From positions 1-64,000 of the IMG/VR virus record IMGVR_UViG_3300032011_003203: 64,000 nt of DNA; one strand, given 5' to 3'. This document shows positions 11,412 to 61,311 of this stretch, piece after piece. Within the stretch, counting starts at the first letter, position 1, and each line of letters opens with the position of its first letter. The stretch comes from a virus. Both the position numbers and the translations under genes were made by a program. Under the pieces are notes generated by a model. The model did no database searches. It was not told the DNA's origin and worked only from the letters and a program-made list of their open reading frames with translations.

Positions 11412-11968
11412 TGTTTATAAATCATACACACAAGTTTATCTTTATTCACATACCAAAGAATGGTGGTACGAGTATTCGTAATTCATTTGATATTAATGGG
11501 TATGATAAAAAGGTAGTAAGAAAGAAGTACCCACACGATGGTACAATGAAGATACGAGATTATTGTGGAGATGAAGTATGGAATACATTTTATAAGTTTG
11601 CAGTTGTTCGTAATCCATATGATAGATTAGTTAGTTATTATCACTTTCATAAATCACCACAATACAGATATCCAGCAAGAGCACAAGAGTTAAGTTTTAA
11701 AGACTGGGTTATGAATGGATTAGATGACAATATAAAGAAAACACAATTCGGATACTTAGCAATGCAACCAGATTACACTATTAGATTTGAAAAACTACAA
11801 GAGGGTTTTGATGATGTATGTAATGGTATTGGTATTGAACCATATGAATTACCACACTATAATAAATCAGAACACGAACCATTCGAAAGTTATTATGATG
11901 ATGAATTAAAGGATATTGTATATGGAATGTTTTTAGTTGATTTTAAAAGATGGGACTACGCTCGCTAG
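11411..11968 (+). CDS. Sulfotransferase family protein
   Basis: 185 residues. The PAPS 5'-phosphosulfate loop H-I-P-K-N-G-G-T-S-I-R lies near residue 14. The 3'-phosphate motif V-V-R-N-P-Y-D-R-L-V-S-Y-Y lies near residue 72, followed by F-K-D-W-V and I-R-F-E-K-L. It would move sulfate from PAPS to a hydroxyl, probably on a carbohydrate. It is shorter than most members (about 220-300), but both cofactor motifs are intact. It closes the glycan cluster. Confidence 0.82.
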   Translation: MFINHTHKFIFIHIPKNGGTSIRNSFDINGYDKKVVRKKYPHDGTMKIRDYCGDEVWNTFYKFAVVRNPYDRLVSYYHFHKSPQYRYPARAQELSFKDWVMNGLDDNIKKTQFGYLAMQPDYTIRFEKLQEGFDDVCNGIGIEPYELPHYNKSEHEPFESYYDDELKDIVYGMFLVDFKRWDYAR

Positions 11969-24598: not shown

Positions 24599-24792
24599 TG
24601 GGTAAGTTAGATACAATAGTAGATTCAGTAACTACCGCAGGTGATACTGATGATGGTTTTAAAGTGAGTGAGGTACTCAAAGGTGATACACGCTTAAAAG
24701 GTGAATCCTATGAGGATTTCAAGATTCGTAGGAAAGCTGAAAAGGGTTTAGTAAGAGATTATCTCAAAGGGAGATTTATACCTAATAAATGA
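24598..24792 (+). CDS. Hypothetical protein, 64 residues
   Basis: GTG start sharing one base with the upstream stop. It ends in a K-G-R-F-I-P-N-K motif and overlaps the deformylase ATG by 4 nt. Function unknown. Confidence 0.5.
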   Translation: MGKLDTIVDSVTTAGDTDDGFKVSEVLKGDTRLKGESYEDFKIRRKAEKGLVRDYLKGRFIPNK

Positions 24793-25415
24793 GACAAGTA
24801 ATTAATTGTTTAAAACACGATAATCCAGTTATTAATAAAAAACTAAGAGAGGTTTCAGTTGAAGAGGGAATGGCTATTGCAACAGAACTATTTCAAATAC
24901 TTAACCAAAGAGGGGACGGCATTGGGTTGGCAGCTAATCAAGTGGGAATTGATGCACAAGTGGCCGTTGTCAATGTTCGTGAACCTTTGGTTCTCATTAA
25001 TCCAAAAATTATCTCAAAAGAAAATGAGTTAGATTTTTACGAGGGATGTTTATCTTATAAAGGCAAGGGTGTTCATACTAAACGATATGAAACAATACAT
25101 GTCCAAACTGCACAAGAAGAGAGTGGTTGGATATTTAGTGGAACACCTAATGCAAGTGAGGGTAAAGGTAGTTGGGAAAAAAATGATAAGGATGAACAAG
25201 AATTAAGATTGTTAGAAACCATATGTGTTCAACACGAGATTGACCACTTGATGGGTAAAACAATATTTGATAGGGAATATAAACCAAAACCTATTATTAG
25301 TGAAAAGAAATTTGGAAGAAACGAACTTGTTACAATAAAAAGAAATGATGCCGTTAAGGTATTAAAGTACAAGAAAGCAAAATCATTTTTAGATGATGGT
25401 TGGGCAATTAATTAG
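24789..25415 (+). CDS. def: Peptide deformylase
   Basis: 208 residues. All three deformylase motifs are intact: G-I-G-L-A-A-N-Q-V-G, E-G-C-L-S-Y with the metal Cys, and Q-H-E-I-D-H-L with the metal His pair and catalytic Glu. It removes the formyl group from new proteins. An insertion of about 35 residues before the third motif and a basic C-terminal extension of about 40 residues are extra. Phage deformylases are known from marine myoviruses. Confidence 0.93.
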   Translation: MRQVINCLKHDNPVINKKLREVSVEEGMAIATELFQILNQRGDGIGLAANQVGIDAQVAVVNVREPLVLINPKIISKENELDFYEGCLSYKGKGVHTKRYETIHVQTAQEESGWIFSGTPNASEGKGSWEKNDKDEQELRLLETICVQHEIDHLMGKTIFDREYKPKPIISEKKFGRNELVTIKRNDAVKVLKYKKAKSFLDDGWAIN

Positions 25416-26128: not shown

Positions 26129-26243
26129 AAAAATACTTTGGTATTTGGGAAATTTGAAGCATATATATTTTATGTATCAATACAAGAAACACTTAAAAAT
26201 GAGAATTGAAAAAAATAACTTTGGAAGAAATGAAGAATGGTAA
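26103..26243 (+). CDS. Hypothetical basic protein, 46 residues
   Basis: Begins with GGGG just upstream and encodes an aromatic, basic peptide with K-I-L-W-Y-L-G-N-L. It overlaps the end of the previous gene and the start of the UV endonuclease. A longer frame upstream exists, but it lies wholly over the previous gene. Confidence 0.4.
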   Translation: MMIMQHLIRKILWYLGNLKHIYFMYQYKKHLKMRIEKNNFGRNEEW

Positions 26244-27190
26244 ATAATAAAATCGGTTATGCGTGTATCAATATGCAACTTAGTTATCCTACTAAGTATG
26301 GTAATAAACCAAAAGGTACACAACCTATCACAACAAATCGTAGTATGATTAAAAGAACCTTTACAGAGAAAGGTGTTGATTATGCTTCAGAACTTATCCT
26401 ACAAAATGTAAAAGATTTAAACTCAATCATTAATTGGAATATATTAAATGGTTACGATTTCTATCGTATGAGTAGTGATATCACGCCTTGGAAAACTGAG
26501 TATGAATGGAGTGACCTAAAAGATATTACAGAAATCAAACAATGGTTACATTCTGCTGGTACACTCGCAACTACTCACGGAATTAGATTAACAACACATC
26601 CAGGCCCTTTCAATGTATTGGTTTCACCACACGAGCATGTAGTGGATAATTGTGTAAAGGACTTAACAATACACGGAGATGTTATGGATATGATGGGATT
26701 ATCTCGTACACCATACAATAAAATTAATATACATCTTGGTGGTGTCTATGGTGATAAACAATCTGCTATGGATAGATTTTGTAAAAACTTTTCTAAGTTA
26801 CCAATGAGTGTACAAACAAGATTGACTGTCGAGAACGACGACAAGGCATCAATGTATTCAGTAAAGGAGTTATACGATGGAATATACAAACGAATTAATA
26901 TCCCTATTGTGTTTGATTATCATCACCACAGATTTTGTGATGGTGGTTTATCGGAACAAGAAGCGTTAGAATTGGCAATGTCTACTTGGGGAGATATCAA
27001 ACCAGCAGTTCACTATTCTGAATCAAGAAGTATTGAACAAGAGGATACAAAAATTCGACCACAGGCACATTCAGATTATGTGTATGATTATATCGATACA
27101 TATGGTAATGGTGTTGATATTATGGTTGAGGCAAAAGCTAAAGAGTTAGCAGTAAACAAATATAAACAAATACACATAAAGGAGTTATAG
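26237..27190 (+). CDS. UV DNA damage endonuclease, UvdE/UvsE family
   Basis: 317 residues. The TIM-barrel repair endonuclease marks are I-G-Y-A-C-I-N at the N-terminus, R-M-S-S-D-I-T-P, H-L-G-G-V-Y-G-D-K, T-V-E-N-D-D, F-D-Y-H-H-H, H-Y-S-E-S and M-V-E-A-K-A-K-E with the metal ligands. It nicks DNA 5' to UV photoproducts. Useful for a sunlight-exposed phage. Confidence 0.9.
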   Translation: MVNNKIGYACINMQLSYPTKYGNKPKGTQPITTNRSMIKRTFTEKGVDYASELILQNVKDLNSIINWNILNGYDFYRMSSDITPWKTEYEWSDLKDITEIKQWLHSAGTLATTHGIRLTTHPGPFNVLVSPHEHVVDNCVKDLTIHGDVMDMMGLSRTPYNKINIHLGGVYGDKQSAMDRFCKNFSKLPMSVQTRLTVENDDKASMYSVKELYDGIYKRINIPIVFDYHHHRFCDGGLSEQEALELAMSTWGDIKPAVHYSESRSIEQEDTKIRPQAHSDYVYDYIDTYGNGVDIMVEAKAKELAVNKYKQIHIKEL

Positions 27191-35988: not shown

Positions 35989-36710
35989 TGCCAAGAAAAG
36001 CAAAAAAGGGTTCACCACGATATTACTTTCATCAAGGAACTGAAGATGCAATCATTCGCTTGAATAAAGAAACTCGTGCTCATATGAAAGAACGAATTTA
36101 TAATGAACATATTCGTACACCATTTGAGAAACTTGCTGAGAATATAATTCATACATTTAAGTTTTATTACTTTGATGTTCCAAGTGAGGATGTTAAACAC
36201 GAAGTGGTTTCATTCTTATATATGAATATTCACAAATTTGCTGAGGGTAAGGGAAAGGCATTTAGTTATTTCAGTATTGTTGCTAAGAACTATTTGATTC
36301 TACACAACAACAATAATTACAAGAAGATGAAACAACACGATAGTGAGGATGTGATGGATTATAAAAGAGACCCAGTCACAGAACTTCGTGGTAAAGAATC
36401 TCGTAGTATGAAGATGGAGTACATCGAACAACTTGCTGATTATTGGAGAAATAATTTAACTACAGTCTTTAAACGAAAGAAAGATTTGGATGTTGCTAAT
36501 TCGGTAGTAGAGTTAATTGATATGAGACATAATATCGATAACTTTAATAAGAAAGCATTATACATTCTTATTCGTGAAATGACTGGTTCTAATACACAAC
36601 ACATAACTCGTGTAATTAATGTGATGAAGAAACATCATAACAATTTACACAAGGCATATTTAACTACTGGCTCGGTTGATACTAAACGAACTGGTAGTTG
36701 GTTTGAGTGA
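35988..36710 (+). CDS. T4 gp55-like late-transcription sigma factor
   Basis: 240 residues. The segment L-A-E-N-I-I-H-T-F-K-F-Y-Y-F-D-V-P then D-V-K-H-E-V and K-A-F-S-Y-F-S-I-V-A-K-N-Y-L-I strongly resembles gp55 of T4 and marine relatives. The latter is the sigma-region 2-like core. It would direct host RNA polymerase to late promoters, probably the TATTTATW boxes described here. A sliding clamp co-activator is not in this window. Confidence 0.82.
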   Translation: MPRKAKKGSPRYYFHQGTEDAIIRLNKETRAHMKERIYNEHIRTPFEKLAENIIHTFKFYYFDVPSEDVKHEVVSFLYMNIHKFAEGKGKAFSYFSIVAKNYLILHNNNNYKKMKQHDSEDVMDYKRDPVTELRGKESRSMKMEYIEQLADYWRNNLTTVFKRKKDLDVANSVVELIDMRHNIDNFNKKALYILIREMTGSNTQHITRVINVMKKHHNNLHKAYLTTGSVDTKRTGSWFE

Positions 36711-37525
36711 AGTTATATCAACAAGATTGGAATTATCGGAAAAACAATACCGATAAATATCCAGAGTTAAAAGCTATTACATCATATCCAAATTCTTTTT
36801 GGTTAACAAGGAATCCTAAGAAACCAAAACTTGGTAGAAAGTTAACTCATAGTATTCGAAGATTGTGTAGAAGAGCACATCCAGCTCAACCAGTTATAGT
36901 TTTATATGCTATACCTGGTAGAGATATGGGTGGACATTCAAAGGGTGGTTTAACAGAAAAACAATATCTAAAATATGTTGGTGATATTGCTTTAGGTATT
37001 GGAAATTTTAAACCAATAATTATTTTTGAACCAGATGCAATTCCACATATGAGAAAGATGAATTTCTTTCAACGAACTAATCGTACAAGGTTGATTAAAA
37101 AAGCTTTAGGTTTATTATCAAATACCAATGCACAAGTATATCTTGATATTGGACATCCAAATTGGTTAAAGAAAACAGATGCTGCAACTTATCTTAATTT
37201 ATTTAACAAAGGTGATATAAAGGGTTTTTCTATTAATGTGAGTAATTTCGTAACAACAGATAAGTGTTTACGATATGGTGATAAAATATCTGAAGAAACA
37301 AATTTAAATTATGTTATAGATACATCAAGAAATGGTAACGAGGTTTGGGAAACATTCAATCCACAAGATATGAAACTTGGTGAAGAACCTACTATCAGAA
37401 CTAATTCAAGAAAGTGTGATGCTTATCTTTGGATTAAAACACCAGGTGAAAGTGATGGTGCTGTAAATGGTTGGCCTAAAGCTGGTAGATTTAATGCTAA
37501 AAAAACCTTATCTCTTATAAATTAA
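36707..37525 (+). CDS. Glycoside hydrolase family 6 (cellulase family) enzyme
   Basis: 272 residues, GTG start overlapping gp55's stop. GH6 marks run in order: L-Y-A-I-P-G-R-D-M-G-G-H-S with the catalytic Asp, I-I-F-E-P-D-A, V-Y-L-D-I-G-H-P-N-W, S-I-N-V-S-N-F, V-I-D-T-S-R-N-G, and L-W-I-K-T-P-G-E-S-D-G. GH6 enzymes cut beta-1,4-glucan. No signal peptide is visible, so it may be a virion or lysis-released depolymerase. GH6 in a phage is unusual to my knowledge. A terminator follows. Confidence 0.85.
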   Translation: MKLYQQDWNYRKNNTDKYPELKAITSYPNSFWLTRNPKKPKLGRKLTHSIRRLCRRAHPAQPVIVLYAIPGRDMGGHSKGGLTEKQYLKYVGDIALGIGNFKPIIIFEPDAIPHMRKMNFFQRTNRTRLIKKALGLLSNTNAQVYLDIGHPNWLKKTDAATYLNLFNKGDIKGFSINVSNFVTTDKCLRYGDKISEETNLNYVIDTSRNGNEVWETFNPQDMKLGEEPTIRTNSRKCDAYLWIKTPGESDGAVNGWPKAGRFNAKKTLSLIN

Positions 37526-44944: not shown

Positions 44945-47900
44945 ATGTTACAATATGGTTTAACAGATAAAGACAGAGAACAATTAGAATATCCTAAACA
45001 ATTGTATAGTGGTTTTGGTAGAGATGCTAATGACTTCATACATTTCTATGTCTATGATATGGAGGATAATTTATTAGAAGATGATATCCTAAAACCAGGT
45101 GATGTTTTATTCAGAGACGATAATACTATTGATTTAGATATTGGTGGACACGTCAGAGATTTAGGTTATGAAGAAGGTCAATTTAAAGTTAAGTATCTTT
45201 TTCTTAGACGATTAGCTGGTAAAAAAGAAACCATTATGGTGAACGATGAGGGATTCATCAATATGGGAAAAATTTCTACTAAAGTTATTAATGGTAAGAC
45301 AAGATATTTTAAAGGTGGAATGAAACCTACTAACCAAACATTAGAAGAAGTATTTCCAAAAGAAATGAAGTATGTGGTGAAAGAAGTATCACCATCAAAG
45401 AATGAAGTAAAAGTAGATGTCCAATTAATTAATAATGTTTCTTATCGTAAAAACTTTGCTGGTATAAATAAAGATTTTGTTTATGTACCAAAAAGAATTG
45501 GTGGTGCAAATGCAGGAACAGTCAGATGGGATAAAACTGATGGTAATGTTTTAATAATGACACCAGGTGTTGGTGAACGAGGATTTACAGATGCAATGGT
45601 TGGTGGTGAAGTTGTTGTTAAGGGTATGTATGAATACACTTTAACAGAAACTAAAATGGTAGAGACACTTGTTAGAAAAGAAACAGAAGTTTTAATTAAT
45701 AGACCTACGAAAAGCATACCACCAAGACCAGATGAAAAGAAAGAGTTCTTTGATGATATTGTAAAAACTACAGTCGATAAAGAACCTGTCGGAGTAAAAG
45801 AAATATTAGAAAAGACACCAGGCCCAGACCAAGATTATGATGATTATAGAGATAGGGATGATTATGGAAGTGTTTGTTTTACTGGTGATACAAAAATTAA
45901 ATTAAGTAACAATCGTACCATTCCAATTAAAATGATGAGACCTGGTATGAAAGTTAAAACCGAACAAGGTTATGCAAAAGTATTAAAGGTAGTTAAAGAT
46001 AACAGACCTTACGGAGATAAATTAGTTCGTTATAAAAATCTTACCACTACAGACCATCACCCGATTAAACATCAAGGTAAATGGTATTTAGCAAATGAAG
46101 TTGGTACAGAATTTAAAGCTGAGGCATTAGATGTTTGGAATCTAATACTGGACAAACACCACACTATCATTGCTAACAATATAACATCTGCAACACTTGG
46201 TAAGTGGAATAGTATTGAACATTTCTTAGGTGTTAGAGATAGAAGAATTAATATGTTGAGGGTTGCAGAAGATTTTGAAGATACTGGTGGAGGTGGTGGT
46301 TCATATGTACCACCAGCAGACCCATCACCATCAGACTCAGTAATAGAAGAGATAATGACTGAGGTAGGAGATAATATACAAACAGATGATGAGGTTGTTG
46401 ATGAAAGAGGATATGCAAAAGGATTAGAACCTACTAATGAATATATTGTTGATAGGAGACCAAAAGCTTTTACAAAAGAAATAATTGAAGATTTTGCTAC
46501 TGATGAAGATTCAATAGCAAAATATAAAACAGTCGTTACATTTGATACTGAATTAGTTCCAATTGATGTATTTAAACAAGTACCAGTTGATTATGTTGGT
46601 AAGGTTGTTGAAATTTTAGATTTCGATAGAATACGAGTTGATACATCTTACGAAGAGGGAGCAAACAAATCAGACCATAGTGGGCCAGATAGATTCAATG
46701 ATATCTTTACAGATTCATTTGTAACATATAGAAAAAACAAGATAACAAGATTAAATACTTATATGGTTACTAAAGAGGGATATCATTTATGTATTAATAT
46801 GTTAGATGCCCCAACACAAACTTTACCTGATAGTGATAAAAAATTACCAATAAGAGATGTAGCAGATAGAACTGCTCGTTATGTTAAAACTTATAAACCA
46901 TTACCAGATACAATTGAACAAAATGATTTAGTTTATTTCGTAGAAGAAAAAATGGAGCCATACGAAGATATGGTTAAGATAACTAAATTTGTAGAAGAGG
47001 ACCCCGTAGCATTATTTTTAAGAGTTCCAAATTTAAATTCAACAACCAATCCAATTAATTTTAGAAGTACTAATTTTAAAAAGTATGATGATTTAATTGG
47101 AACTGATACTTCAGTTCAAGATGATATAACGAATCACATACACTCAAGTAGTTTATTAGATGTACAATTGGGTATTGATTATTCCATACGAACTGATGCA
47201 CTTGGTAGTGATAGAACTGATTATGGATTTGGAAACTTTGTTAATTTTGGTGGAGCGGAAAATAGAATAAGAAACTTTAAAAAGAAGATAAAATTAATTG
47301 AGGGTTATAAAACTGATTCACATGCATTGATAAATATTACATCATCTGCAGATACTCGTGCAAATATTAATATGAGAAAACGAGAAGTTATAAATAGTTT
47401 TGACCCATATGAAAATTATCTATATACAGTCTCATCAAGTTATGCAACAAGTTCTCTTGGTGAGTTCTATGATGCATCTTGGCCTAAGACAAGTGGTTCA
47501 AGAGAAGATGGCACAAACTTTATATTAGAACATACAAGTGGTTCAACATTTACTACTTGGTTTGATACTTGGACTGGATACGCAAAAGATTTCGATACAT
47601 ACAATCAGAATAGATTGGTAAATAATTTACCACTGCATGTAGCAAGTGATACTGAGAATAAAGTATTCTTAGATTTTATGGATATGACAGGACAACAATT
47701 TGATGAGATATGGGGATACATAAGACACTTTACAGATATCAATGAACGAAGTAATAAATTATCAGAGGGTATCTCTAAAGATATAGTTCGTGAAGTTGCA
47801 AAGAGTATGGGTTTTGAAGTTGATAGTGGAAATGATTTAGTTATTTTACCAGAATACTTATTAGGTAAAACAGCAGATGGTCAAGATAAATACGAATCAC

Positions 47901-49981
47901 CACAAGAAGCCGTAACCGAAGAAATATGGAAAAGAATTTTAGCTAATATGCCATTCTTTATGAAGAACAAAGGTAACCAACGAGCAATGAAAGGTTTGAT
48001 AAATTGTTATGGTATTCCAAGTTCTATTTTAAGAATTAGAGAATATGGTGGACCAGATTTAAATGATAGAGTTAGTCACGAAATAAAAAGAAAGTTTAGT
48101 TACGCTGCTGATTTTAAATCAAGTGAGTATTTACAATTTCCTTGGCAAGATGATAGTACAAGTGGAATCAAACCAGAAACTTTAGAATTTAGATTTAGAG
48201 CACCAACATCAAAGGATATGACATTAGTTCAAAAGGGTGTTGGTAATCATAGTTTTGCAATTCAAATACAAGATAATGGATTAACTGATGCTTATGGTAA
48301 ATTAAAATTTAGTGTATCTGCATCAACAGGTATTCAATTTATGACATCATCACTACAACCATATTATAATAATGATATGTGGAGTGTGATGTTAACACGA
48401 GTATCACAAAGTGGGTTAGATTTAACTGCAGATGGAAATGCACAAGATATAACATATCAGTTAACATCAAAACAATATGATGCTACAAGACAAGTTATTT
48501 TATATCAAACAAGTGAAAGTGTAAATATAGATGGAAATGCTTCAGCAGGAGCAGCGTTTAATAAATCAGTACACGATGATGGTACATTTTATATAGGTGG
48601 TAACGGAGAGTTTGGTACAAGATTTAGTGGTTCAATGCAAGAGTTTAGATTGTGGAGTGAACCATTATCACAAAGTGTATTTGATAATCATGTCCAAGCA
48701 CCAAAGAGTTATAATGGTAATACAACAAGTTCTGCATATGATAATTTAATATTTAGATTACCATTAAATGATAATACTGATTTAAATACTTTACCAGAAT
48801 CACTTGATGATAAATCTTACACTACAAGTTATTTTCCAAGTGCGAGTGCAGTTGGATTTAGTGGTAATCCATTTAGAAGTTTAGTAGACCAAGAAAAACT
48901 AAGAGTTCCAAATGTAGGACCGTCTCGTAGAAATGCAACAAAGATTAGAACTGAGGCAACAAAACTAACTGGTAACTTATCTTCTAATATTAGAGTTGAA
49001 GCATCATCGTTAGATTTTGCACCAATAGATAGTAATAAACTTGGAGTATTCTTCTCACCTACAGATGTAGTAAATGAAGATATAATGTATTCATTAGCAG
49101 ATATAAATCTTGATAATGAAATTGGAGACCCAAGAGACCAATATTCTGATTACTATCGTGGATTAGATAGAGTACAAAGAGATTATTGGAAAAAATATAA
49201 TCGTTCAAATAACTTTTGGGATTATATGAGAATTATAGAATTTTTTGATGGTAGTATATGGAAACAATTAAGAGCAATGATTCCAGCAAGAACAAATGCA
49301 ACACTTGGTTTATTAATAGAACCAAATATTTTAGAACGAAGTAAACAAGTTGTAGGAAAAATACCAGAGTTTGAAAATACATATTATGAAAATGCTGGAC
49401 ACTTTGCAGATGGAATACAATTATCAAGTAGATTAAGTAGTTCCGATTCACCAAATCCATATTCACTATCTGGAGAATATCCAGTATATGAAAGTGAAAT
49501 AATATTATACACAATGGATAGTGGTTCGGTTGGAATATTAGGAAATCCAACATTGAACAAAATAGATGAGATAGACCCACGAACACCATTCTTATCATTA
49601 TACGCAACAGCAAGTATTACATTTGGTGATATAGATACAACATTTGAAGAGACAGTTCAACCCTTTATAACTGCTTCTCGTTTATCAGAACACAACGATA
49701 TTAAAGTTCCTTACTATACGAGTTCATTATCAGATTCGATAGCAAAAGGATATGGATATCACACAGAATTTAATGGAAACTATCAATTTAGTGCATCATT
49801 CGAGAGAAGTTCATTTACAAGTGTAGCACTCGATTCTTCACTATTTAGATTGTTTTATAAAGGTAGTAATTTAACAAAAGATAACACAATAGATGGACTA
49901 GACCCAGTCGAAATAACAATTACCACACCTACTAAGTTGGTAACACAAGAACCTGGTGATTCTAAGTTAAAAGTTGAGTAA
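44945..49981 (+). CDS. Giant baseplate/tail protein with embedded Hint domain and LamG-like domain
   Basis: 1678 residues. Residues 311-421 form a Hint domain: C311-F-T-G-D-T-K-I at its start, then T-T-D-H-H-P-I-K and the end H-H-T-I-I-A-N-N-I-T. A Gly-rich linker follows. About 1075-1290 is a LamG/ConA-like domain with F-R-L-W-S-E-P-L and Y-I-G-G-N-G. Other parts are acidic and Tyr-rich. There is no clear intein splice junction after the domain, so it is probably autoproteolytic rather than spliced. Position fits a large baseplate protein near gp7/gp10. Confidence 0.8.
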   Translation: MLQYGLTDKDREQLEYPKQLYSGFGRDANDFIHFYVYDMEDNLLEDDILKPGDVLFRDDNTIDLDIGGHVRDLGYEEGQFKVKYLFLRRLAGKKETIMVNDEGFINMGKISTKVINGKTRYFKGGMKPTNQTLEEVFPKEMKYVVKEVSPSKNEVKVDVQLINNVSYRKNFAGINKDFVYVPKRIGGANAGTVRWDKTDGNVLIMTPGVGERGFTDAMVGGEVVVKGMYEYTLTETKMVETLVRKETEVLINRPTKSIPPRPDEKKEFFDDIVKTTVDKEPVGVKEILEKTPGPDQDYDDYRDRDDYGSVCFTGDTKIKLSNNRTIPIKMMRPGMKVKTEQGYAKVLKVVKDNRPYGDKLVRYKNLTTTDHHPIKHQGKWYLANEVGTEFKAEALDVWNLILDKHHTIIANNITSATLGKWNSIEHFLGVRDRRINMLRVAEDFEDTGGGGGSYVPPADPSPSDSVIEEIMTEVGDNIQTDDEVVDERGYAKGLEPTNEYIVDRRPKAFTKEIIEDFATDEDSIAKYKTVVTFDTELVPIDVFKQVPVDYVGKVVEILDFDRIRVDTSYEEGANKSDHSGPDRFNDIFTDSFVTYRKNKITRLNTYMVTKEGYHLCINMLDAPTQTLPDSDKKLPIRDVADRTARYVKTYKPLPDTIEQNDLVYFVEEKMEPYEDMVKITKFVEEDPVALFLRVPNLNSTTNPINFRSTNFKKYDDLIGTDTSVQDDITNHIHSSSLLDVQLGIDYSIRTDALGSDRTDYGFGNFVNFGGAENRIRNFKKKIKLIEGYKTDSHALINITSSADTRANINMRKREVINSFDPYENYLYTVSSSYATSSLGEFYDASWPKTSGSREDGTNFILEHTSGSTFTTWFDTWTGYAKDFDTYNQNRLVNNLPLHVASDTENKVFLDFMDMTGQQFDEIWGYIRHFTDINERSNKLSEGISKDIVREVAKSMGFEVDSGNDLVILPEYLLGKTADGQDKYESPQEAVTEEIWKRILANMPFFMKNKGNQRAMKGLINCYGIPSSILRIREYGGPDLNDRVSHEIKRKFSYAADFKSSEYLQFPWQDDSTSGIKPETLEFRFRAPTSKDMTLVQKGVGNHSFAIQIQDNGLTDAYGKLKFSVSASTGIQFMTSSLQPYYNNDMWSVMLTRVSQSGLDLTADGNAQDITYQLTSKQYDATRQVILYQTSESVNIDGNASAGAAFNKSVHDDGTFYIGGNGEFGTRFSGSMQEFRLWSEPLSQSVFDNHVQAPKSYNGNTTSSAYDNLIFRLPLNDNTDLNTLPESLDDKSYTTSYFPSASAVGFSGNPFRSLVDQEKLRVPNVGPSRRNATKIRTEATKLTGNLSSNIRVEASSLDFAPIDSNKLGVFFSPTDVVNEDIMYSLADINLDNEIGDPRDQYSDYYRGLDRVQRDYWKKYNRSNNFWDYMRIIEFFDGSIWKQLRAMIPARTNATLGLLIEPNILERSKQVVGKIPEFENTYYENAGHFADGIQLSSRLSSSDSPNPYSLSGEYPVYESEIILYTMDSGSVGILGNPTLNKIDEIDPRTPFLSLYATASITFGDIDTTFEETVQPFITASRLSEHNDIKVPYYTSSLSDSIAKGYGYHTEFNGNYQFSASFERSSFTSVALDSSLFRLFYKGSNLTKDNTIDGLDPVEITITTPTKLVTQEPGDSKLKVE

Positions 49982-52972: not shown

Positions 52973-55606
52973 ATGTCCAATTATTTAAAATCTTTGGTTC
53001 TATTATTGGTACTTTCCCTATCGTGGGCACAAGAGCCGATAATCCGAATCAAACAAACAGGCGAATATAATTTACCAAAAACTTGGTGGAGAGAATCGGA
53101 AACTTTCCAACTACAAACATACCTTGCAGATGATAAAGATAATCCTGCATTGTATAACAATAACTTTGATGCATTTAGAGATAGTGTGATGACAATGGAA
53201 GTTACACTTGATGATAATGGTGCAGATATAACAGCATTTAGATTAGATATAGTTTTTGACAATGATTTAATTGATTGGGACCACGATGATACAGAAGTAT
53301 TAAAGGGTTCTCACTTATCAAGTGCAACAGAGGGAGATTCAACTGCAGGAGCAGATTACTCATATGAAGTTGTACACTATTCTAATGTAGGATATATTGA
53401 TTCACTTCAAACTGCAGATGGTGAAATATCTGAAAACAATAATAGATATGATTGGTTAAGAATCACTATGGTATCACACAATGGAAATACTTTTGAATTT
53501 GGTGGTGGTGATGGTGTACAAAAACAATTAATAAAATTAAATTTTAAAATAGAAGATGTAGTAGATAATTTTTCACCACAATCGTTTAGAGTTCCAACAT
53601 TATACAATGGTGGTTTTGGGTACTACACATACGCTTCAGATGATTATCTTTTAGATTACAAGGTTTACATCGATGGTAATTGGGGAACGGAAGAAACTGA
53701 TGATGGTGGTGCTCGTGGAGATATCACACTACATCCAAAACTTTTAGATGTTGAGGGATTCTTTAGATACGCACAAAGAAATGGTACTAATGATGATAGA
53801 ACTTATCCTTATTGGAAAGTTGTATTTGAACTTGACCAAAGTAATCCAGGTAGTGTTTCTAATTGGTATAACATTGAGGATATAGATGATGAGACAAGTA
53901 ATACTGATGAAACCACTACTGATGATGTTATCGGTGATGGAACATCTACATTTTGGTTTGATGACCAAGGAACTACTGCAGCACAAACTTTACCAGGTGA
54001 GGGTTTCTTAGGAATTAGTTATTATGATTCTACATTTGTTGATGATAGAGGATATTTTAATATTCAATTACCAAGAAATAATTACTATCGTGTATCGTTT
54101 TATCCACCAGATGCAGATGATGATATAGGTACACATACACAATACGAACTTGATAGATATGCAATTACAAATATTAATGATGCTATTGCTGCATTTAATT
54201 TTCAAAGTAACAAATGGAAATCAGTAACAGGTGTTGATACTTTAGATGCAGTTGAATATTTTATTGGTGATGTTGATGGTGATGATGTATTTCAATTAAA
54301 TGATGCTTATTTCTTATGGGCATATACTTCAGGTATATTTGAAAACTATACACACTTAAATGGAAACTCATATGAGAATTGGAGTACGATTGATACATTA
54401 AAAGAAAATGGTAATCCATTTCCATATGAATGGTATGAAGATTTAGGAGCACAGAAATACGAATTTACAGTCTTTGAGGATGATGATTTTGACCAATCCG
54501 AAGAATTAAATTTTGGAGTAATAGAAGTTACTAATCCATTGATGAATACAATTCAGACTGGGTTAGATACTTTGGGTGTAACATTAGGTGCAGGTAACTC
54601 TACATATGGTAGTGATGCTAATCCAGATTTAACTTTACCTGATTGGGGATATTTCTTTACAGGAGATATTAATAATACTGGTACTAAAGTACAAGAACCA
54701 GGTAATGATGCAGATGGGTATATAGATGTAAATGGAACAACATTCTATCGTTGGGGTAACGGAAGTGCACCAGGTACTTGGGCAAATAAAATTGCTACTC
54801 AAACTCCAGATGTATTTTTCTCAATGCCAGCAGATTCAACTGTCAGAGTACAAAGTGGTGACCAAATAGAAGTACCATTTTATATTACACCAGACCAATT
54901 AAAAAATATTGATGTTGCTGGATTTGAGTTCGAGGTGTTATTCAATACCAATCAGTTAACATTTATTGATATGAAAACAGATGTTCTTCCAGGCCCGTGG
55001 TTTACTTATGTAAATGTACACGAACCTGATGATATAGGGTATCAGAAAGTATCGTTTGGTGGTATGGATTATTCACCAGGTAATGCACCACAACAATATT
55101 GGATTAATGAACCTATGATTGCATTGAATATGATTTTCCAAGCAGATTTTCCTGATTCAGAGTGGACTGAAGCAGATGTACAATTTGTTGGTAAAGGTGT
55201 AGCTGGTAATCCAAGTGGTCAAGATTTATTAGTAAATAAACAAGATGGTAAAATATTAGTATGGAATAAGTATTGGGCATTCGGTGGTGGAGAACCAGAT
55301 GATGATGAGATAACTTATAACTATCCTAATCCATTTAATGAAACTACAAAGTTCCAATTTTATGTAGATGAGTTAACTGATGTTAAAATCTACATCTTAA
55401 ATTCAATGGGACAGTATATTGGTAAATTATTAGATGAACCAGTTTCACAAGGTATTCATACATTTGATTTTAGTAACACACCAGGTGCGTGGTTACCAGA
55501 AGAAAGTGTTTATCAAGAGCATAAAGTATTAGAACCAGGTGTTTATATATTTGTTCTTGAAACAGATAAGAGAATTAAAGCTAACAAATTCACGGTCGTG
55601 AAGTAG
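52973..55606 (+). CDS. Secreted multidomain protein with T9SS-type C-terminal sorting domain
   Basis: 877 residues. A signal peptide (1-19, ending S-W-A-Q) is followed by cohesin-like beta regions (about 60-200 and 620-750). A dockerin-like D-V-D-G-D-D-V segment lies near 430. From N783, N-Y-P-N-P-F-N and then K-I-Y-I-L-N, G-V-Y-I-F-V-L and K-F-T-V-V-K make a type IX secretion (Por) sorting domain, typical of Bacteroidetes, Ignavibacteria and Marinimicrobia. In such hosts the protein would be exported and placed on the cell surface. It is the first gene of the envelope block. Confidence 0.8.
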   Translation: MSNYLKSLVLLLVLSLSWAQEPIIRIKQTGEYNLPKTWWRESETFQLQTYLADDKDNPALYNNNFDAFRDSVMTMEVTLDDNGADITAFRLDIVFDNDLIDWDHDDTEVLKGSHLSSATEGDSTAGADYSYEVVHYSNVGYIDSLQTADGEISENNNRYDWLRITMVSHNGNTFEFGGGDGVQKQLIKLNFKIEDVVDNFSPQSFRVPTLYNGGFGYYTYASDDYLLDYKVYIDGNWGTEETDDGGARGDITLHPKLLDVEGFFRYAQRNGTNDDRTYPYWKVVFELDQSNPGSVSNWYNIEDIDDETSNTDETTTDDVIGDGTSTFWFDDQGTTAAQTLPGEGFLGISYYDSTFVDDRGYFNIQLPRNNYYRVSFYPPDADDDIGTHTQYELDRYAITNINDAIAAFNFQSNKWKSVTGVDTLDAVEYFIGDVDGDDVFQLNDAYFLWAYTSGIFENYTHLNGNSYENWSTIDTLKENGNPFPYEWYEDLGAQKYEFTVFEDDDFDQSEELNFGVIEVTNPLMNTIQTGLDTLGVTLGAGNSTYGSDANPDLTLPDWGYFFTGDINNTGTKVQEPGNDADGYIDVNGTTFYRWGNGSAPGTWANKIATQTPDVFFSMPADSTVRVQSGDQIEVPFYITPDQLKNIDVAGFEFEVLFNTNQLTFIDMKTDVLPGPWFTYVNVHEPDDIGYQKVSFGGMDYSPGNAPQQYWINEPMIALNMIFQADFPDSEWTEADVQFVGKGVAGNPSGQDLLVNKQDGKILVWNKYWAFGGGEPDDDEITYNYPNPFNETTKFQFYVDELTDVKIYILNSMGQYIGKLLDEPVSQGIHTFDFSNTPGAWLPEESVYQEHKVLEPGVYIFVLETDKRIKANKFTVVK

Positions 55607-55612
55607 GAAAAG

Positions 55613-56482
55613 ATGATGAAAAAAATATTATTAAGTTTACTATTAATCAGTTCTTTATTTGGACAAGTTAATAGAATATTAACATTATCACCAACAGCAG
55701 AAGAAGCAAGTTTAGGAAACCAATCATTGGCATTTCATAATCCTGCTCGTGCGTATTTTGATACAGATAGTTTAGTTGATTTAAGCTTTACACGAGTAAA
55801 TTGGTTAACTAATATTACAGATGATATGGGATATAACTATGTTGGTGCTGGATATAAAAATTTAACATTTAGTTTACTATACTTTGATTATGGTGAACAA
55901 AATGTTGCAGATATAAATGGAACTATATCAGGACAATTTAGTCCTAACTCACTTGTTGCATATGTTGGGTGGGGTACTAAATTAGAACACAAAAGAAAAA
56001 AAGTAGAAAACATTGCTATTGGTTTTGGTGGTAAAATTGTTAACCATACATTACATACCGATAAGGCAACTGGTATACTTGTAGATGCTGGAGTACACTT
56101 TAAGAATCTATGGAGTAGAGTTGATTTAGATTTAGCAATTCAAAACTTTGGATATCAACCAAAATTTAATGATTGGAAAACAGAAGTACCTACAAGTGTT
56201 AATGTAGGGTTTTCAGTACCAGTAAAAGATTTTAGATTTTACAACCAATGGAATTTGTATGATGGATATCATACACACGGTCAAGGGTTAAAATATCAAT
56301 ACAAGAATTTAATGGATTTTAACATTGGATACTTTAATGATGTAACTCACGAACTAAATTATTCTTCAGTTGGTTTAGGATTTAAAGTAGATAGTTACAG
56401 AGTAGGGGTTGGGTACATCAATGGTGATGAAACCTTTCCTTTAAGTAATACATTTCAGTTAACCATAAATGTGGAGATATAA
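55613..56482 (+). CDS. PorV/PorQ-like outer-membrane protein
   Basis: 289 residues. Signal peptide (1-17, ending F-G-Q) followed by T-A-E-E-A-S-L-G-N-Q-S-L-A-F-H-N-P-A-R. This resembles the G-x-x-A-x-x-L-G-x-x-x-A-x-x-N-P-A start of PorV/PorQ and related FadL-fold barrels of the FCB group. Many aromatic strands follow. PorV helps T9SS cargo cross the outer membrane, and this gene directly follows a T9SS-type cargo gene. PorP/SprF-like or other barrels are alternatives. Confidence 0.6.
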   Translation: MMKKILLSLLLISSLFGQVNRILTLSPTAEEASLGNQSLAFHNPARAYFDTDSLVDLSFTRVNWLTNITDDMGYNYVGAGYKNLTFSLLYFDYGEQNVADINGTISGQFSPNSLVAYVGWGTKLEHKRKKVENIAIGFGGKIVNHTLHTDKATGILVDAGVHFKNLWSRVDLDLAIQNFGYQPKFNDWKTEVPTSVNVGFSVPVKDFRFYNQWNLYDGYHTHGQGLKYQYKNLMDFNIGYFNDVTHELNYSSVGLGFKVDSYRVGVGYINGDETFPLSNTFQLTINVEI

Positions 56483-56483
56483 A

Positions 56484-56543
56484 ATGTGTGAGTGTAAACA
56501 ATGTGAATGTGAGAGTTGTAATTGCTCTTGCTGTGAATGTTAA
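56484..56543 (+). CDS. Cysteine-rich micropeptide, 19 residues
   Basis: Nine of 19 residues are Cys (M-C-E-C-K-Q-C-E-C then E-S-C-N-C-S-C-C-E-C). GGAG precedes the ATG at spacing 7, and a TAA follows. The pattern of C-x-C and C-x-x-C pairs resembles a metal-binding metallothionein-like peptide. It sits alone between two envelope genes. Confidence 0.5.
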   Translation: MCECKQCECESCNCSCCEC

Positions 56544-56558
56544 AAATAGGAGTTAGTT

Positions 56559-56969
56559 ATGGCAAAAGACATAGTAGATGCAGAGAATCTCGTTGAAGAG
56601 ATTAAAGGAAAAAAGTTTGGATTATCGATTAATAACATTGTTGCTATTGTTACTTTTCTTTCTACCGCTATTGCTGGTTGGTATAGTTTTACTGCCCGCA
56701 TTGATTCGTTGGAAGAAGTAGTTACAGGTTTTGCAGATGCAAGTGATATAGAAATCGTAACCGAAAAATTCAATAAGTATGATGAGATATTTGCAGGGTA
56801 CGATGAGGACCTGGTATATCTTCGTGATAAAGTTGATAAACTAAAAAGTCCAAAAATTAAATCTTACGATGGTGATATTATCAAACTTGAAAATGAGATT
56901 GATAAATTAAATGGTGAGATTAAACGATTGGAAAAACTACTGAAAGACCCGTTATCGGATTTCAGATAA
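56559..56969 (+). CDS. Membrane-anchored coiled-coil protein, 136 residues
   Basis: A helix at about 22-42 (N-N-I-V-A-I-V-T-F-L-S-T-A-I-A-G-W) is followed by a long coiled coil. AGGAG precedes the ATG. Part of the envelope block; could bridge membrane layers. Function unknown. Confidence 0.65.
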   Translation: MAKDIVDAENLVEEIKGKKFGLSINNIVAIVTFLSTAIAGWYSFTARIDSLEEVVTGFADASDIEIVTEKFNKYDEIFAGYDEDLVYLRDKVDKLKSPKIKSYDGDIIKLENEIDKLNGEIKRLEKLLKDPLSDFR

Positions 56970-56982
56970 ATAGGAGAAAAAA

Positions 56983-57624
56983 ATGAACAAGATATTCTCA
57001 ATATTGTTACTAATAGGTTTATACGGGTGTGCTGCATCAGTATCTACCGAACAATATGTTGGTGAGTATGAAAAGCAGAAATCATTGGATGAGGTAGAAA
57101 TTACCAAAGTTGATGGATTAAAAATAGTAGAGTTAAAAATTAATAAAGAACTCGAAGAAAGATATCCAGAACTTGCAGAAAAAAGGGTTGCATTTGGTCT
57201 TACACAAGAAATGGAAAATGTGGCATCTTATACAGGAAGATTCAATTTGATAGAGGCCGACAGAGATAATCAATTAATGATGTTGAATGATTTAAAAGCA
57301 AACAACGCTAAAATTGATGTTGCCAAATATTGGGGATATGTTACCATTTATGATTTTGCAGTAAACCTTACTGAAGATATCAAGGGTGGTAAAATAGTAA
57401 CAAGTAATGAAACTATTATTGGTATCCAGGTTAAATTGGTTAACTTAGAGAACACTCAATATGTAGTGGGTAGTGGTCAAGGAAGAGCCAAAACCATAGG
57501 ACAAGGATTTTTAAAAAATCCTAATATGGAATTTAACCAAAGTTCTTTGAGTTCCGCTGGTAACAAAGCAATGGAAACTGCTGTTGTTAATGTTATTAGA
57601 GCGATTGAAAGAAAGGGTTGGTAA
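56983..57624 (+). CDS. CsgG-like lipoprotein
   Basis: 213 residues. The lipobox L-Y-G-C (Cys16) follows a short signal peptide. The mature part has V-A-F-G-L-T-Q-E-M-E-N-V and R-F-N-L-I-E-A-D-R, and ends with a helix like N-K-A-M-E-T-A-V-V-N-V-I, consistent with the CsgG/curli-transport fold. CsgG forms an outer-membrane export channel. CsgG-like genes have, as I recall, been noted in other marine phages (unverified). Confidence 0.65.
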   Translation: MNKIFSILLLIGLYGCAASVSTEQYVGEYEKQKSLDEVEITKVDGLKIVELKINKELEERYPELAEKRVAFGLTQEMENVASYTGRFNLIEADRDNQLMMLNDLKANNAKIDVAKYWGYVTIYDFAVNLTEDIKGGKIVTSNETIIGIQVKLVNLENTQYVVGSGQGRAKTIGQGFLKNPNMEFNQSSLSSAGNKAMETAVVNVIRAIERKGW

Positions 57625-57633
57625 AAGAAATGA

Positions 57634-58626
57634 ATGTGGCAGAAATTATTATATATAGTATTACTATGTAGTTCGGTTTCTGCCCAGTCTTTCTTTTATA
57701 GTTATATTGACCCTTGTAATCAAACTACTATAAGGGAATCATATACTCTACAAGAGGATGGTGGTGGATTTCAAGTTACATATTATAATAGAACAAGATA
57801 CTTTACATTTGAACAAGTTTTAAATGGAGAGTTAGAATCTTGGGCAGAATCGGTTTATAATGATTTTGAAGATTTGTTTCCTTGTGCTGTTAGGGTTGCA
57901 GAAGAAGTGTTATCTTCGGTGATTGCAAGTAGTGCTGCATCACAATTCAGTAAAACTGATGATATATCAGTAGACCCACAACAAGTAAATTATGCGATAC
58001 AGAGTACCACACGAGATTCGTTAAGTGGTAAGTGGATTACTTCATTTAATAGTGTTTACACAAAAGAAAGTTTTGATGGTAGTAGACGACACGATGGTAA
58101 TCTAAATTTTACAGATGATTTAAGAAAGGGTTCGTTAACATACGGACAAGGATTTAAATTTAAGGCTAAGAAACAAAATGTACAATGGAATGGTACTGCA
58201 TTAGCTTTTGAAACATTCGAGGGGTGGGATTGGTTAGCTTCGGTATCCTACGCAAAATCCCTTGATAAACCTTTATCAGAAGCGATTGTATTGACAGGAA
58301 CTTACGGAATGGTTAGTGATAATGGATTTGCTAATATCAATTTAGTATATGGTATGACATATCCATTTCAATTTCGTAATGCGGATTTAACAATAAGTAA
58401 TTATGTTGCTTACACATTGATGAGATATTACGAGGGTAATAATCGAGGTGAACGATATTTATTACTAAGAAGTCCAATAATAATGTTTCCAACCATTTCG
58501 GTGGATTGGAAGTTGGGACAAGCATTCAAATTGAATCTTGGTTTCTCAATGGGTTTAAATACAGTCGTGAATGATTACGGCGAACGAAGTAGAACATATA
58601 GTTTATTATTTGGAACTTACTTTTAA
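57634..58626 (+). CDS. Outer-membrane beta-barrel protein, 330 residues
   Basis: Signal peptide (1-19, ending V-S-A-Q), then aromatic alternating strands through residue 330, ending F-G-T-Y-F with the terminal Phe of outer-membrane proteins. Cys residues appear near the N-terminus (D-P-C-N-Q) and at C-A-V. It sits directly after the CsgG-like lipoprotein. Probably an export or adhesion barrel. Confidence 0.65.
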   Translation: MWQKLLYIVLLCSSVSAQSFFYSYIDPCNQTTIRESYTLQEDGGGFQVTYYNRTRYFTFEQVLNGELESWAESVYNDFEDLFPCAVRVAEEVLSSVIASSAASQFSKTDDISVDPQQVNYAIQSTTRDSLSGKWITSFNSVYTKESFDGSRRHDGNLNFTDDLRKGSLTYGQGFKFKAKKQNVQWNGTALAFETFEGWDWLASVSYAKSLDKPLSEAIVLTGTYGMVSDNGFANINLVYGMTYPFQFRNADLTISNYVAYTLMRYYEGNNRGERYLLLRSPIIMFPTISVDWKLGQAFKLNLGFSMGLNTVVNDYGERSRTYSLLFGTYF

Positions 58627-58636
58627 GGAGAAGAAA

Positions 58637-59158
58637 ATGAAAAAATTCTTAATTGGATTTTTATTAATTAGTGGTTTAATGAGTCAAGGTTTACCAGAAC
58701 CATCAATAGTTGGTGAGGGTAATCTGAAGAGACCTACTTTGAGAATATCAGAGTTTGTAAGTGTTTCTGATAAAGTAGTAGTTGAGGATGAAAGAATAAC
58801 ATTCGGTATTCGTCAATTATTACAAGAATCATTTTCAGATACACGATATATTTTAACTGATGATAATAATGCAGATTTTGTAGCATCAGTAGAGGTAGTG
58901 TATCTTGGTAAACCTAATGAGGCATTTAGTATTGTAGGATTATTTAATCGTAGAAGTACTAAAACAGAAGTTAGGTTAATGGTAAATATGGAAAACACCA
59001 AATCAGGTAATATTAAATCATCAAGGGGTGAGGGTGAAATTTCAACAACAATTACAGCTACAGGATTACAAATCTCTGATGATGTACCATTCAACAAAAC
59101 AGAGTTGGGTGGAGCAGTTAGAAAAGCTATTGATGATGCAATTTCCACACTCGAATAA
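58637..59158 (+). CDS. Second CsgG-like or envelope protein, 173 residues
   Basis: AAGGAG precedes ATG 58637, which gives a clean signal peptide (M-K-K-F-L-I-G-F-L-L-I-S-G-L-M-S-Q). The mature part has F-G-I-R-Q-L-L-Q-E-S-F and D-N-N-A-D-F-V-A-S-V-E-V, resembling the CsgG-type ABA/YfiO-like fold, and a closing helix. The upstream longer frame overlaps the previous gene and is rejected. Confidence 0.55.
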   Translation: MKKFLIGFLLISGLMSQGLPEPSIVGEGNLKRPTLRISEFVSVSDKVVVEDERITFGIRQLLQESFSDTRYILTDDNNADFVASVEVVYLGKPNEAFSIVGLFNRRSTKTEVRLMVNMENTKSGNIKSSRGEGEISTTITATGLQISDDVPFNKTELGGAVRKAIDDAISTLE

Positions 59159-59892
59159 TGATTAGAAAAGATACGATTCTTGGTGTTGTAATAAACATCT
59201 TGATTGTACTTGCTGTTGTGGGTACACGATATTATTACGCCAAACAAGAAATGGATTTTCTAACCAAAGATTCAGATAGACAGGAAGAATTAATAACTGT
59301 CAACAAAGTTGAGATAGATACTTTAAATCAGGAGGTTGAGTATTTGAGGGAATTATCAAATGACCAACATAATGAACTTCAAGATTTACAAGTAAAATAT
59401 TACGAACAAGTAAAATGGAATACCGAGTACAATCAGAAAATTAAAAATTTGAAAGATGACCTCGATAGTCTTGGAATAGAATTGGGATTAGCATATATGA
59501 ATACAATTCCATTTCAGTTTGAGTTCGGTTCACAAGATGCTTATATGAAAGTGTTTGGTGGAATGGGATATAAATTACAGAATAACGCAATAGTAGATTC
59601 AGAAACTAATGTTGGGTTTGATGGTAGATTACAATTTGGTGCACCTTTGGTTGACCAAGTTGGTAAACACGAATACCTTGTGTATAACGATGATAGAATT
59701 TGGGAATCAGGTGGTAATAGTGTTTATATGAGTGGTGGTGATGGACAACGAATAAAAGTTAAACCACCAAGAAACCAAATTAGTGTTGGACCATTTGTTG
59801 GAGTTCAATACGATAAGAGTACTGGATTAACAGAACCCGTAATTGGGTTCGGTGTAACTTATAATGCACTAAAAATATGGGATTGGAAATAA
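59158..59892 (+). CDS. Membrane-anchored coiled-coil protein with beta C-terminus, 244 residues
   Basis: N-terminal helix (I-L-G-V-V-I-N-I-L-I-V-L-A-V-V), a coiled coil at about 30-105, and an aromatic, strand-rich C-terminus (V-G-P-F-V-G-V-Q-Y). It shares a base with the upstream stop. Likely spans the periplasm; last gene of the envelope block. Confidence 0.6.
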   Translation: MIRKDTILGVVINILIVLAVVGTRYYYAKQEMDFLTKDSDRQEELITVNKVEIDTLNQEVEYLRELSNDQHNELQDLQVKYYEQVKWNTEYNQKIKNLKDDLDSLGIELGLAYMNTIPFQFEFGSQDAYMKVFGGMGYKLQNNAIVDSETNVGFDGRLQFGAPLVDQVGKHEYLVYNDDRIWESGGNSVYMSGGDGQRIKVKPPRNQISVGPFVGVQYDKSTGLTEPVIGFGVTYNALKIWDWK

Positions 59893-59893
59893 A

Positions 59894-60181
59894 ATGGCTT
59901 TTATAATAGCAGAACCTTGTGTGGGAACTTGTGATACAGCTTGTGTAGATGTATGTCCAGTAGATTGTATTCACGGCCCAATTGATAAGGATGGGTTAGG
60001 AGCAGAAGTACCTGGATTAGATACATTAGATGGGAAACAATTATACATTGACCCAGAAGAATGTATTGATTGTGGTGCTTGTGAACCTGAGTGTCCAGTT
60101 GAAGCTATATTTGATGAAGATATGTTACCAGATGAATGGAAAGAATATATCGATATTAATGCAAACTTTTTTAAAGATTAG
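59894..60181 (+). CDS. Bacterial-type ferredoxin (7Fe or 2[4Fe-4S])
   Basis: 95 residues. The first cluster has C9, C13, C17 and C21-P; the second C-I-D-C-G-A-C-E-P-E-C-P near residues 57-67. This arrangement fits a 7Fe or two-4Fe ferredoxin. Phage ferredoxins are usually the 2Fe plant type; this one could feed electrons to the phage radical SAM enzyme or host reductases. Confidence 0.85.
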   Translation: MAFIIAEPCVGTCDTACVDVCPVDCIHGPIDKDGLGAEVPGLDTLDGKQLYIDPEECIDCGACEPECPVEAIFDEDMLPDEWKEYIDINANFFKD

Positions 60182-60190
60182 GAGACTTTA

Positions 60191-60547
60191 ATGCCTATTG
60201 ATAAAACAATAAAAAAGATGAAAGATGTAGTTAGTAAAGATGTTAAAGATAATATGGCTGCATCTCGTCAAGAGCAACAACATTGGATTAATAAAGAATT
60301 AGTTGGTATTATAAAATACCGACAACAAAAAAAGTGGCAAGTAAGTTTAATCATAATGGTGATATTTATGGTTGTACTACTTCTGATGATTTATTTCATT
60401 GGATTGGGTAGAGATTTAATGCCAGAATGGAAAGAAATCCTACTACTTATGTTAGGTGGGTTTATTGCGAGTTTTAGTAAAGTTGTTGATTTCTGGTTTA
60501 ATAATCAAGAAAACGATAATAAATTATTGGAACACGCCGATGATTAA
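60191..60547 (+). CDS. Membrane protein, 118 residues, holin-like topology
   Basis: Basic N-terminus, two helices at about 50-72 and 84-104, and a charged tail. AGGAG precedes the ATG. The two-helix layout would fit a holin, but no lysin gene is nearby to confirm it. Confidence 0.6.
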   Translation: MPIDKTIKKMKDVVSKDVKDNMAASRQEQQHWINKELVGIIKYRQQKKWQVSLIIMVIFMVVLLLMIYFIGLGRDLMPEWKEILLLMLGGFIASFSKVVDFWFNNQENDNKLLEHADD

Positions 60548-60559
60548 TGAAAGGGTAAA

Positions 60560-60700
60560 ATGCCAAATAGAAATGCAAAAAACAGAAAACAATTGAAACA
60601 AAAACTAAACGCAAAATGGAAAAAAGAAGGTAGAACAGCTAACCAACACAAAAAGTGGAAAGCAAAACAACCTAAGAATCAAAACCAATGGGGTAGATAA
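60560..60700 (+). CDS. Lys/Gln-rich peptide, 46 residues
   Basis: Strongly basic (K-N-R-K-Q-L-K-Q-K-L then W-K-K-E-G-R-T). AAGGG lies before the ATG, and the TAA overlaps the next ATG. Possibly DNA- or RNA-binding. Confidence 0.5.
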   Translation: MPNRNAKNRKQLKQKLNAKWKKEGRTANQHKKWKAKQPKNQNQWGR

Positions 60701-61311
60701 TGATTAAATTAAAAGAGTTGATTGAATTACAATCTATGGTTTATACAGAAACTATAAAACCAAAACACAAAAAAAGGTTTACAAGACCTACACCAAGTTT
60801 TCACGAGAATCTTGTAATGCCAAAATATCAACCACCATCAAATGATAGTTCTACTACATTAGATGAAATTAAGTATTTAAGTTCAATAAAACCAAATAAG
60901 GATAAAGTTTTAAAATTTGATAAAGTTAAAGAAACATTTAAACCTTATGCAGAAGAACTTGGTATATATGAGTATATTAAAAAAATAGAACACGAATCAG
61001 TAAAGTTTATTATGAAATTAAAATATGAGTATAATAGACCAAGACCTTATCAAATTGCTGAGTTCTATGGTATTGATTTAAATGGTACGGAAACTAATAG
61101 TATGAAAACACCATCATTTCCAAGTGGACATGCAATACAAGGATATTTAATTGCTGATATATTAAGTAAACATAATCCAAGTAATACTGAAATGTATCAA
61201 AAGATAGGTGAAGATATTGCACATTCAAGAATAATTGGAAAAGCACATTATCCATCTGATAAGAAATATGGAAAGAAAGTTGCTAAAGCATTATTCAAAG
61301 GATTAAAATGA
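60700..61311 (+). CDS. PAP2-superfamily phosphatase
   Basis: 203 residues. The three phosphatase motifs are present: K-Y-E-Y-N-R-P-R-P, P-S-G-H, and S-R-I-I-G-K-A-H-Y-P-S-D. No membrane helices are visible, unlike lipid phosphatases, so it may act on small soluble phosphates. Overlaps both neighbours. Confidence 0.78.
   Translation: MIKLKELIELQSMVYTETIKPKHKKRFTRPTPSFHENLVMPKYQPPSNDSSTTLDEIKYLSSIKPNKDKVLKFDKVKETFKPYAEELGIYEYIKKIEHESVKFIMKLKYEYNRPRPYQIAEFYGIDLNGTETNSMKTPSFPSGHAIQGYLIADILSKHNPSNTEMYQKIGEDIAHSRIIGKAHYPSDKKYGKKVAKALFKGLK

Follow-up and report, generated by a model that had tools for sequence, protein, structure and literature searches.

Among described systems, two bear most closely on the locus analyzed here, a block of envelope genes on the first 64 kb (the window) of an 81,264-base virus record, IMGVR_UViG_3300032011_003203. 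In PelBC exopolysaccharide export, a PelC dodecamer is described as seated on the PelB barrel (PMC12141448). The reported CsgG systems of phages consist of CsgG proper with CsgF and partly include curli fibers (PMC7029224, PMC9599517, PMC9004378), with curli modules described from marine phages (PMC7029224, PMC9599517), and the roles put forward in these accounts are capture of siblings, uptake and a pinholin function, the last suggested for CsgG of phage Melnitz (PMC9004378). CsgG genes in phages are already known; for the combination of genes in this block, no description was found in the literature searched (open-access papers only). Our tentative reading is that the block forms the outer-membrane (OM) portion of a conserved and probably late module with which the phage remodels the infected-cell surface.

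The core of the block is formed by five open reading frames (ORFs) at 56559-59892, all on the + strand and separated by 13, 9, 10 and -1 bases. They encode an inner-membrane-type protein of 136 amino acids (aa) with one transmembrane (TM) segment near residues 20-45 followed by a coiled coil (TMCC1, 56559..56969); an OM-type lipoprotein of 213 aa with lipobox LYGC and Cys16 (CsgG-like 1, 56983..57624); an OM beta-barrel of 330 aa (57634..58626); a secreted protein of 173 aa that has no lipobox (CsgG-like 2, 58637..59158), whose listed ORF begins at 58571 but whose translation probably starts at the ATG at 58637, preceded by AGGAG; and a protein of 244 aa with an N-terminal TM anchor, a coiled coil and a conserved C-terminal beta segment (TMCCb, 59158..59892). 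On the same strand the block extends upstream to 52973, taking in an 877-aa surface protein (52973..55606) and a PorV/PorQ-family OM protein (55613..56482), and perhaps downstream to 60547, the end of a gene for a protein with two TM segments (TM2, 60191..60547). Chance ORFs are excluded because open runs in 500 Markov copies of the region reached 149 codons at most, because purifying selection acts on all six genes tested and because the order is kept in relatives. Median ratios of nonsynonymous to synonymous substitution (dN/dS; counts exclude the rows of L037) were lowest for CsgG-like 1 (0.095) and TMCC1 (0.151) and rose through the barrel (0.203), the surface protein (0.248) and CsgG-like 2 (0.313) to TMCCb (0.368). 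An earlier reading made from the letters of the DNA (the sequence-only reading) had described five adjacent genes on one strand in this order, and they are real.

The order of these genes is conserved across two groups of related phages. Close relatives of CsgG-like 1 occur in 36 viral contigs (window-type), 27 of which carry all eight genes in order, from the gene at 51849 through TMCCb; the other nine lack genes at cut ends, and the order is broken in none. Among 50,697 phage records, either CsgG-like protein was matched only in the four records of immuto, an isolated phage of Flavobacterium (Immutovirus, NC_055915; host Flavobacterium sp. LMO8). The immuto block comprises a cohesin protein with a type IX secretion system (T9SS) domain (gp015), a small TM protein (gp016), CsgG-like 1 (gp017, 31% identical to the window protein), a barrel with the shared N-terminal motif (gp018) and CsgG-like 2 (gp019), all annotated as hypothetical or by domain only. 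Searching with gp017 returned 113 viral contigs, of which 80 were kept, in records of up to 308,574 bases; this immuto-type version is overall about 30-35% identical to that of the window. Where these 80 loci have enough flanking DNA to be testable, the surface protein lies upstream in 74 of 74 and the barrel followed by CsgG-like 2 lies downstream in 67 of 67. These counts include near-identical contigs: when the CsgG-like 1 genes are clustered at 95% identity, the 36 loci give 25 clusters and the 80 loci give 41. A scan of cellular genomes (84,980 species, one genome each) yielded four loci, all in metagenome-assembled bins, three on phage-looking contigs of 9 to 20 kb and one on a 254-kb contig, and among 395 genomes from a single phylum, searched by profile, only the genome holding one of those four matched. 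Cellular genomes seem to lack the block.

CsgG-like 1 is predicted to adopt the CsgG/PelC fold. An AlphaFold2 model built from a 24-row alignment (predicted local distance difference test, pLDDT, 66.7; predicted template modeling score, pTM, 0.60) was matched by Foldseek to PelC in the top four places (best 5t0z, E 1e-7) and after that to CsgG (6l7a, E 9e-7), while VIA-align scored CsgG highest (4uv2, Z 11.8 over 170 aa), followed by PelC (9.7), PelC of PelBC (9.1) and TraT (7.5). Among viral models, a phage protein bearing the name CsgG ranked first (E 2.3e-7). By profile comparison, CsgG-like 2 is a distant paralogue of CsgG-like 1 (hhalign 98.2%, E 4e-14). Comparisons with cellular CsgG were weak, at 42.9% (E 2.5e-4) for CsgG-like 1 and 78.5% (E 1.7e-5) for CsgG-like 2; shuffled controls, 20 profiles per comparison, never exceeded 0.9%, or 2.7% for the paralogue comparison. 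The CsgG of pelagiphage HTVC008M, used as a single sequence, did not match either CsgG-like profile (0.9% and 1.9%), which argues against close kinship, and the profiles of both CsgG-like proteins and of the barrel, run against PDB sequences, returned nothing meaningful and no PelB or PelC. The CsgG model PF03783 likewise had no match by hmmscan of the window proteins, in a six-frame search of the 81,264-base record or in immuto, although the same model finds the HTVC008M CsgG at 180.4 bits (E 1.8e-54), and the CsgF model PF10614 had none in the 81,264-base record, which is possibly a fragment. With a structural match to CsgG and a conserved gene order both found, the sequence-only reading of a CsgG-like lipoprotein is upheld in fold, and membership in PF03783 and a CsgF partner are not supported; its second CsgG-like protein is indeed a relative of the first and is not a lipoprotein.

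The barrel protein is predicted to be an OM barrel of no named family, with an N-terminal domain (conserved YxYxDPC motif) that is also present in 31 immuto-type loci, followed by helices and by about 11-12 strands at residues 137-329. Its model is poor (pLDDT 54.4, pTM 0.51), and its structure matches were barrels only, with no single family in the lead. The amyloid exporter FapF came first by Foldseek (E 1.5e-4) and was set aside after a second look that was led by CymA, EspP and many other barrels. It is the one barrel within 56559-59892, where the sequence-only reading had written of barrels in the plural; the PorV-type protein precedes that range.

Both CsgG-like proteins look too short for the two membrane hairpins of CsgG, which seem to be absent: extra strands before the last helix are missing from the middling-confidence CsgG-like 1 model, and in the profile alignment to CsgG the first hairpin region is shorter and charged. 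Because CsgG-like 1 seems too short for hairpins and the barrel has a gene of its own, placed between the CsgG-like pair, the layout recalls PelB-PelC more than curli. As in PelBC, a CsgG-fold lipoprotein is encoded beside a separate OM barrel, and chains of PelBC match both the CsgG-like 1 and the barrel models; unlike PelBC, the block has two CsgG-like proteins and a T9SS-sorted partner, and its barrel is smaller than the 16 strands of PelB. With the curli (type VIII) system and its pelagiphage versions (HTVC008M, Melnitz) the block shares the predicted fold and with the latter its carriage by a phage, but it differs in escaping PF03783, in the lack of a detected CsgF, in its separate barrel and in its partners. 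Two cellular CsgG proteins of 450-464 aa (L125:1375-2724 and L130:1372-2763) carry, behind the CsgG domain, a long C-terminal extension that resembles a barrel by eye and may be the fused equivalent of what the phages encode as a separate barrel.

The upstream surface protein begins with a signal peptide, followed by a dockerin-like segment near residues 400-460, a cohesin-type domain at about 620-740 and a type A T9SS sorting domain at 784-875 (TIGR04183, 25.6 bits against a cut-off of 23); PF18962 is below cut-off in the window protein and above it in L080, L115 and immuto. Window-type and immuto-type surface proteins align with each other at 98.4% (hhalign, E 4.4e-15). The cohesin model PF00963 matches 15 of 16 window-type family members at E <= 0.05 and, by record, reaches E <= 0.001 in 11 of 13 and exceeds its cut-off in nine of 13. 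A pattern scan of 20 surface or lectin-type proteins found a dockerin-like segment (DVNGDN..ISD type) in 16 of them; a profile of the segment matched cellulosomal scaffoldin adaptor chains first in the PDB (E 0.0095), with dockerin chains lower, and the dockerin model PF00404 reached E <= 0.01 in seven of 13 records, one of them over cut-off. The neighboring PorV/PorQ-family protein scores 100.7 bits with NF033709 (cut-off 90) and does not reach the PorV equivalog NF033710 (53.1 against 250 bits) or the PorQ equivalog; among the loci compared, its gene is confined to window-type phages. The arrangement is like that of a T9SS cargo with a PorV/PorQ protein, both families being over NCBIfam cut-offs; unlike ordinary cargo, it is phage-encoded and tied to the CsgG-like/barrel set.

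Many immuto-type loci also have genes labeled as lectin-type: of the 67 loci testable on the downstream side of CsgG-like 1, 38 carry one there, and 25 of all 80 carry one upstream. Gene labels were used here since a tblastn count (79 of 82 loci) is inflated by a query that also matches the surface protein. Three scanned lectin-type proteins contain Lectin_C, Laminin_G_3 and GEVED domains. Because their N-termini look by eye like signal peptides, lectin-type proteins are more likely exported than part of the virion.

The match to ring-forming PelC and CsgG, the kinship of the pair, their distant profile similarity to cellular CsgG, the kept order, the T9SS-sorted surface protein, the lectins and PorV all favor the remodeling of the infected-cell surface. 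CsgG-like 1, with or without CsgG-like 2, would sit as a ring beneath the barrel in the manner of PelC and PelB, and the TM coiled-coil proteins would connect the resulting station with the inner membrane. The cohesin-type protein would reach the cell surface through the host T9SS, helped in window-type phages by the phage PorV-type protein; once there, its cohesin and dockerin-like segments could link copies of it into chains or bind partner lectins. The station with the barrel may itself export a partner or anchor the surface layer, and the benefit may be adhesion between cells or masking against other phages. Several observations weigh against this account. The ring, its docking, the surface display, the expression late in infection and the advantage gained are what we infer, and the CsgG-like 1 model is of only middling confidence and that of the barrel poor. 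PF00963 misses the window surface protein and the window record, in which PF00404 also finds nothing, PorV is absent from the immuto-type neighborhood, and no T9SS sorting domain was found in the three scanned lectin-type proteins. Because a T9SS-sorted cohesin-type surface protein belongs to the module, the phrase "export or surface-fibre system" of the sequence-only reading is a fair one; export through the barrel stays conjectural, and lysis genes lie nearby in many relatives.

The last point also counts against surface remodeling, as the module sits in a neighborhood of both envelope and lysis genes. Endolysin genes (phrog_181, E about 1e-70) were found inside the block of L122 and next to that of L123. 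Of the 52 immuto-type loci whose flanks were long enough, 32 have such an endolysin at most 5 kb away, and by cluster the figure is 20 of 30 testable, which favors a link to lysis. TM2, holin-like by topology only, goes with the block in window-type and immuto-type phages alike, with relatives in eight window-type sequences (the window included) and in 34 immuto-type loci, in most of which it directly follows CsgG-like 1. Endolysin proximity and TM2 linkage therefore make OM breaching a real rival, if an unlikely one: a lysis or egress device in which TM2 acts as a holin, the TM coiled coils act like i-spanins and a CsgG-like/barrel complex opens or destabilizes the OM after the endolysin. The pinholin proposal for Melnitz CsgG lends it some weight, as do weak Rz-like matches of TMCCb, but these are far under cut-offs (20.6 bits for the spanin model TIGR03495, which requires 92.75) and would suit any TM coiled coil. 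TMCCb otherwise gave weak coiled-coil and DUF6808 matches only, and coiled coils alone in the PDB. None of three endolysin queries matched in window-type loci, and a lysis device would leave the T9SS-sorted cohesin-type protein, PorV and the co-occurring lectins unexplained.

Among the TM proteins, TMCC1 has 79% mean column identity over 11 sequences. The small TM protein of the window was rejected as a relative of immuto-type gp16, as the profile comparison gave 3.7% and the two have place and topology alone in common. Just ahead of TMCCb, a conserved membrane-type protein of 46 aa (HLKENNIGYWKHWWRAMK...IHAWLPD) has relatives in 10 window-type loci (L009:2326-2469, L011:5987-6127, L022:11175-11315 and others).

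TraT is a decameric surface-exclusion lipoprotein of plasmids, and the block may be compared with it as an OM lipoprotein of similar fold. By this analogy, the CsgG-fold lipoprotein and the surface protein would mask or block receptors and so exclude superinfecting phages, an explanation that we regard as more doubtful than OM breaching. TraT is among the fold matches (rank 49 in Foldseek, besides its VIA-align score), and receptors could be covered by a surface protein that has lectins as partners, but TraT falls below CsgG and PelC in fold scores, several genes are co-conserved in the block, and TraT is not known to have a partner set of this kind. A match to a Cor exclusion family was weak, in one of 24 CsgG-like 2 members (E 0.057), and no better than the other, chance-level matches of that member. 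A degenerate curli system secreting amyloid through CsgG, as in pelagiphages, is highly improbable: the common fold and the curli modules of marine phages speak for it, and the empty PF03783 and CsgF searches of the 81,264-base record, the apparent shortness of the CsgG-like proteins and the different neighbor genes speak against it.

Remodeling of the infected-cell surface remains our preferred reading, and a more specific form of it, which we put forward as a speculation of low probability, is that phages, some of them of Flavobacterium, encode a self-assembling cellulosome-like scaffold, in which a T9SS-exported protein with cohesin and dockerin segments would link up with dockerin-bearing lectins and be anchored or exported by a phage-encoded CsgG-fold ring and barrel; the infected cell would thereby become adhesive or shielded ahead of lysis. 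The likeness to cellulosomes lies in predicted cohesin- and dockerin-type segments on one protein and dockerin-like segments on lectin-type proteins; the block differs in showing no scaffoldin and no linked cellulase. A GH6 (cellulase-type) gene does occur in the window at 36707-37525, but its start is not signal-peptide-like and it is present in two of 12 related records, so that it was rejected as a cellulase link.

Other features of the window were noted. A 24-aa Cys-rich ORF (MCECKQCECESCNCSCCEC type; 56469..56543, + strand) lies between the porV end, which it overlaps, and TMCC1; a similar Cys-rich ORF occupies this position in 15 of the 35 relatives that could be tested (L004, L007, L012, L034 and others), and it looks like a metal-binding micropeptide. 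An FdxA-like ferredoxin gene (59894-60181) lies within the envelope operon and is found elsewhere among the 36 relatives only in L001. The source of the block is a tailed phage, and a baseplate-wedge-type gene is located upstream at 41165. A promoter scan found fewer sites than in shuffled sequence. N-terminal tags resembling MIKLK(D/E)LL are carried by several unrelated proteins (a PAP2 protein at window 60700-61311, L021:10147-11091, L120:6751-7308 and L121:4143-4799); we take them to be reminiscent of T4 capsid-targeting sequences, and the tagged proteins may enter the capsid and leave it together with the DNA. A 1678-aa protein (44945-49981) contains a stretch that is intein/Hint-like by eye (CFTGDTKIKLSNN...HHTIIANN). 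Host-type genes encode S-adenosylmethionine synthetase (6016-6996), a sulfotransferase (11411-11968), PhoH (21642-22475), peptide deformylase (24789-25415) and the UV endonuclease UvdE (26237-27190).

The phage CsgG genes described in the accounts cited above (PMC7029224, PMC9599517, PMC9004378) belong to curli-type modules, the role of which is open. The module analyzed here is unlike them and is spread over many environmental phage sequences, in records of up to 308 kb. As it is also present in a cultured pair of phage and host, immuto and Flavobacterium sp. LMO8, the role of phage OM CsgG-fold proteins is directly testable. The module also links a phage with type IX secretion and with the chemistry of cohesins and dockerins, which would be a new route by which a phage could change the surface of its host.

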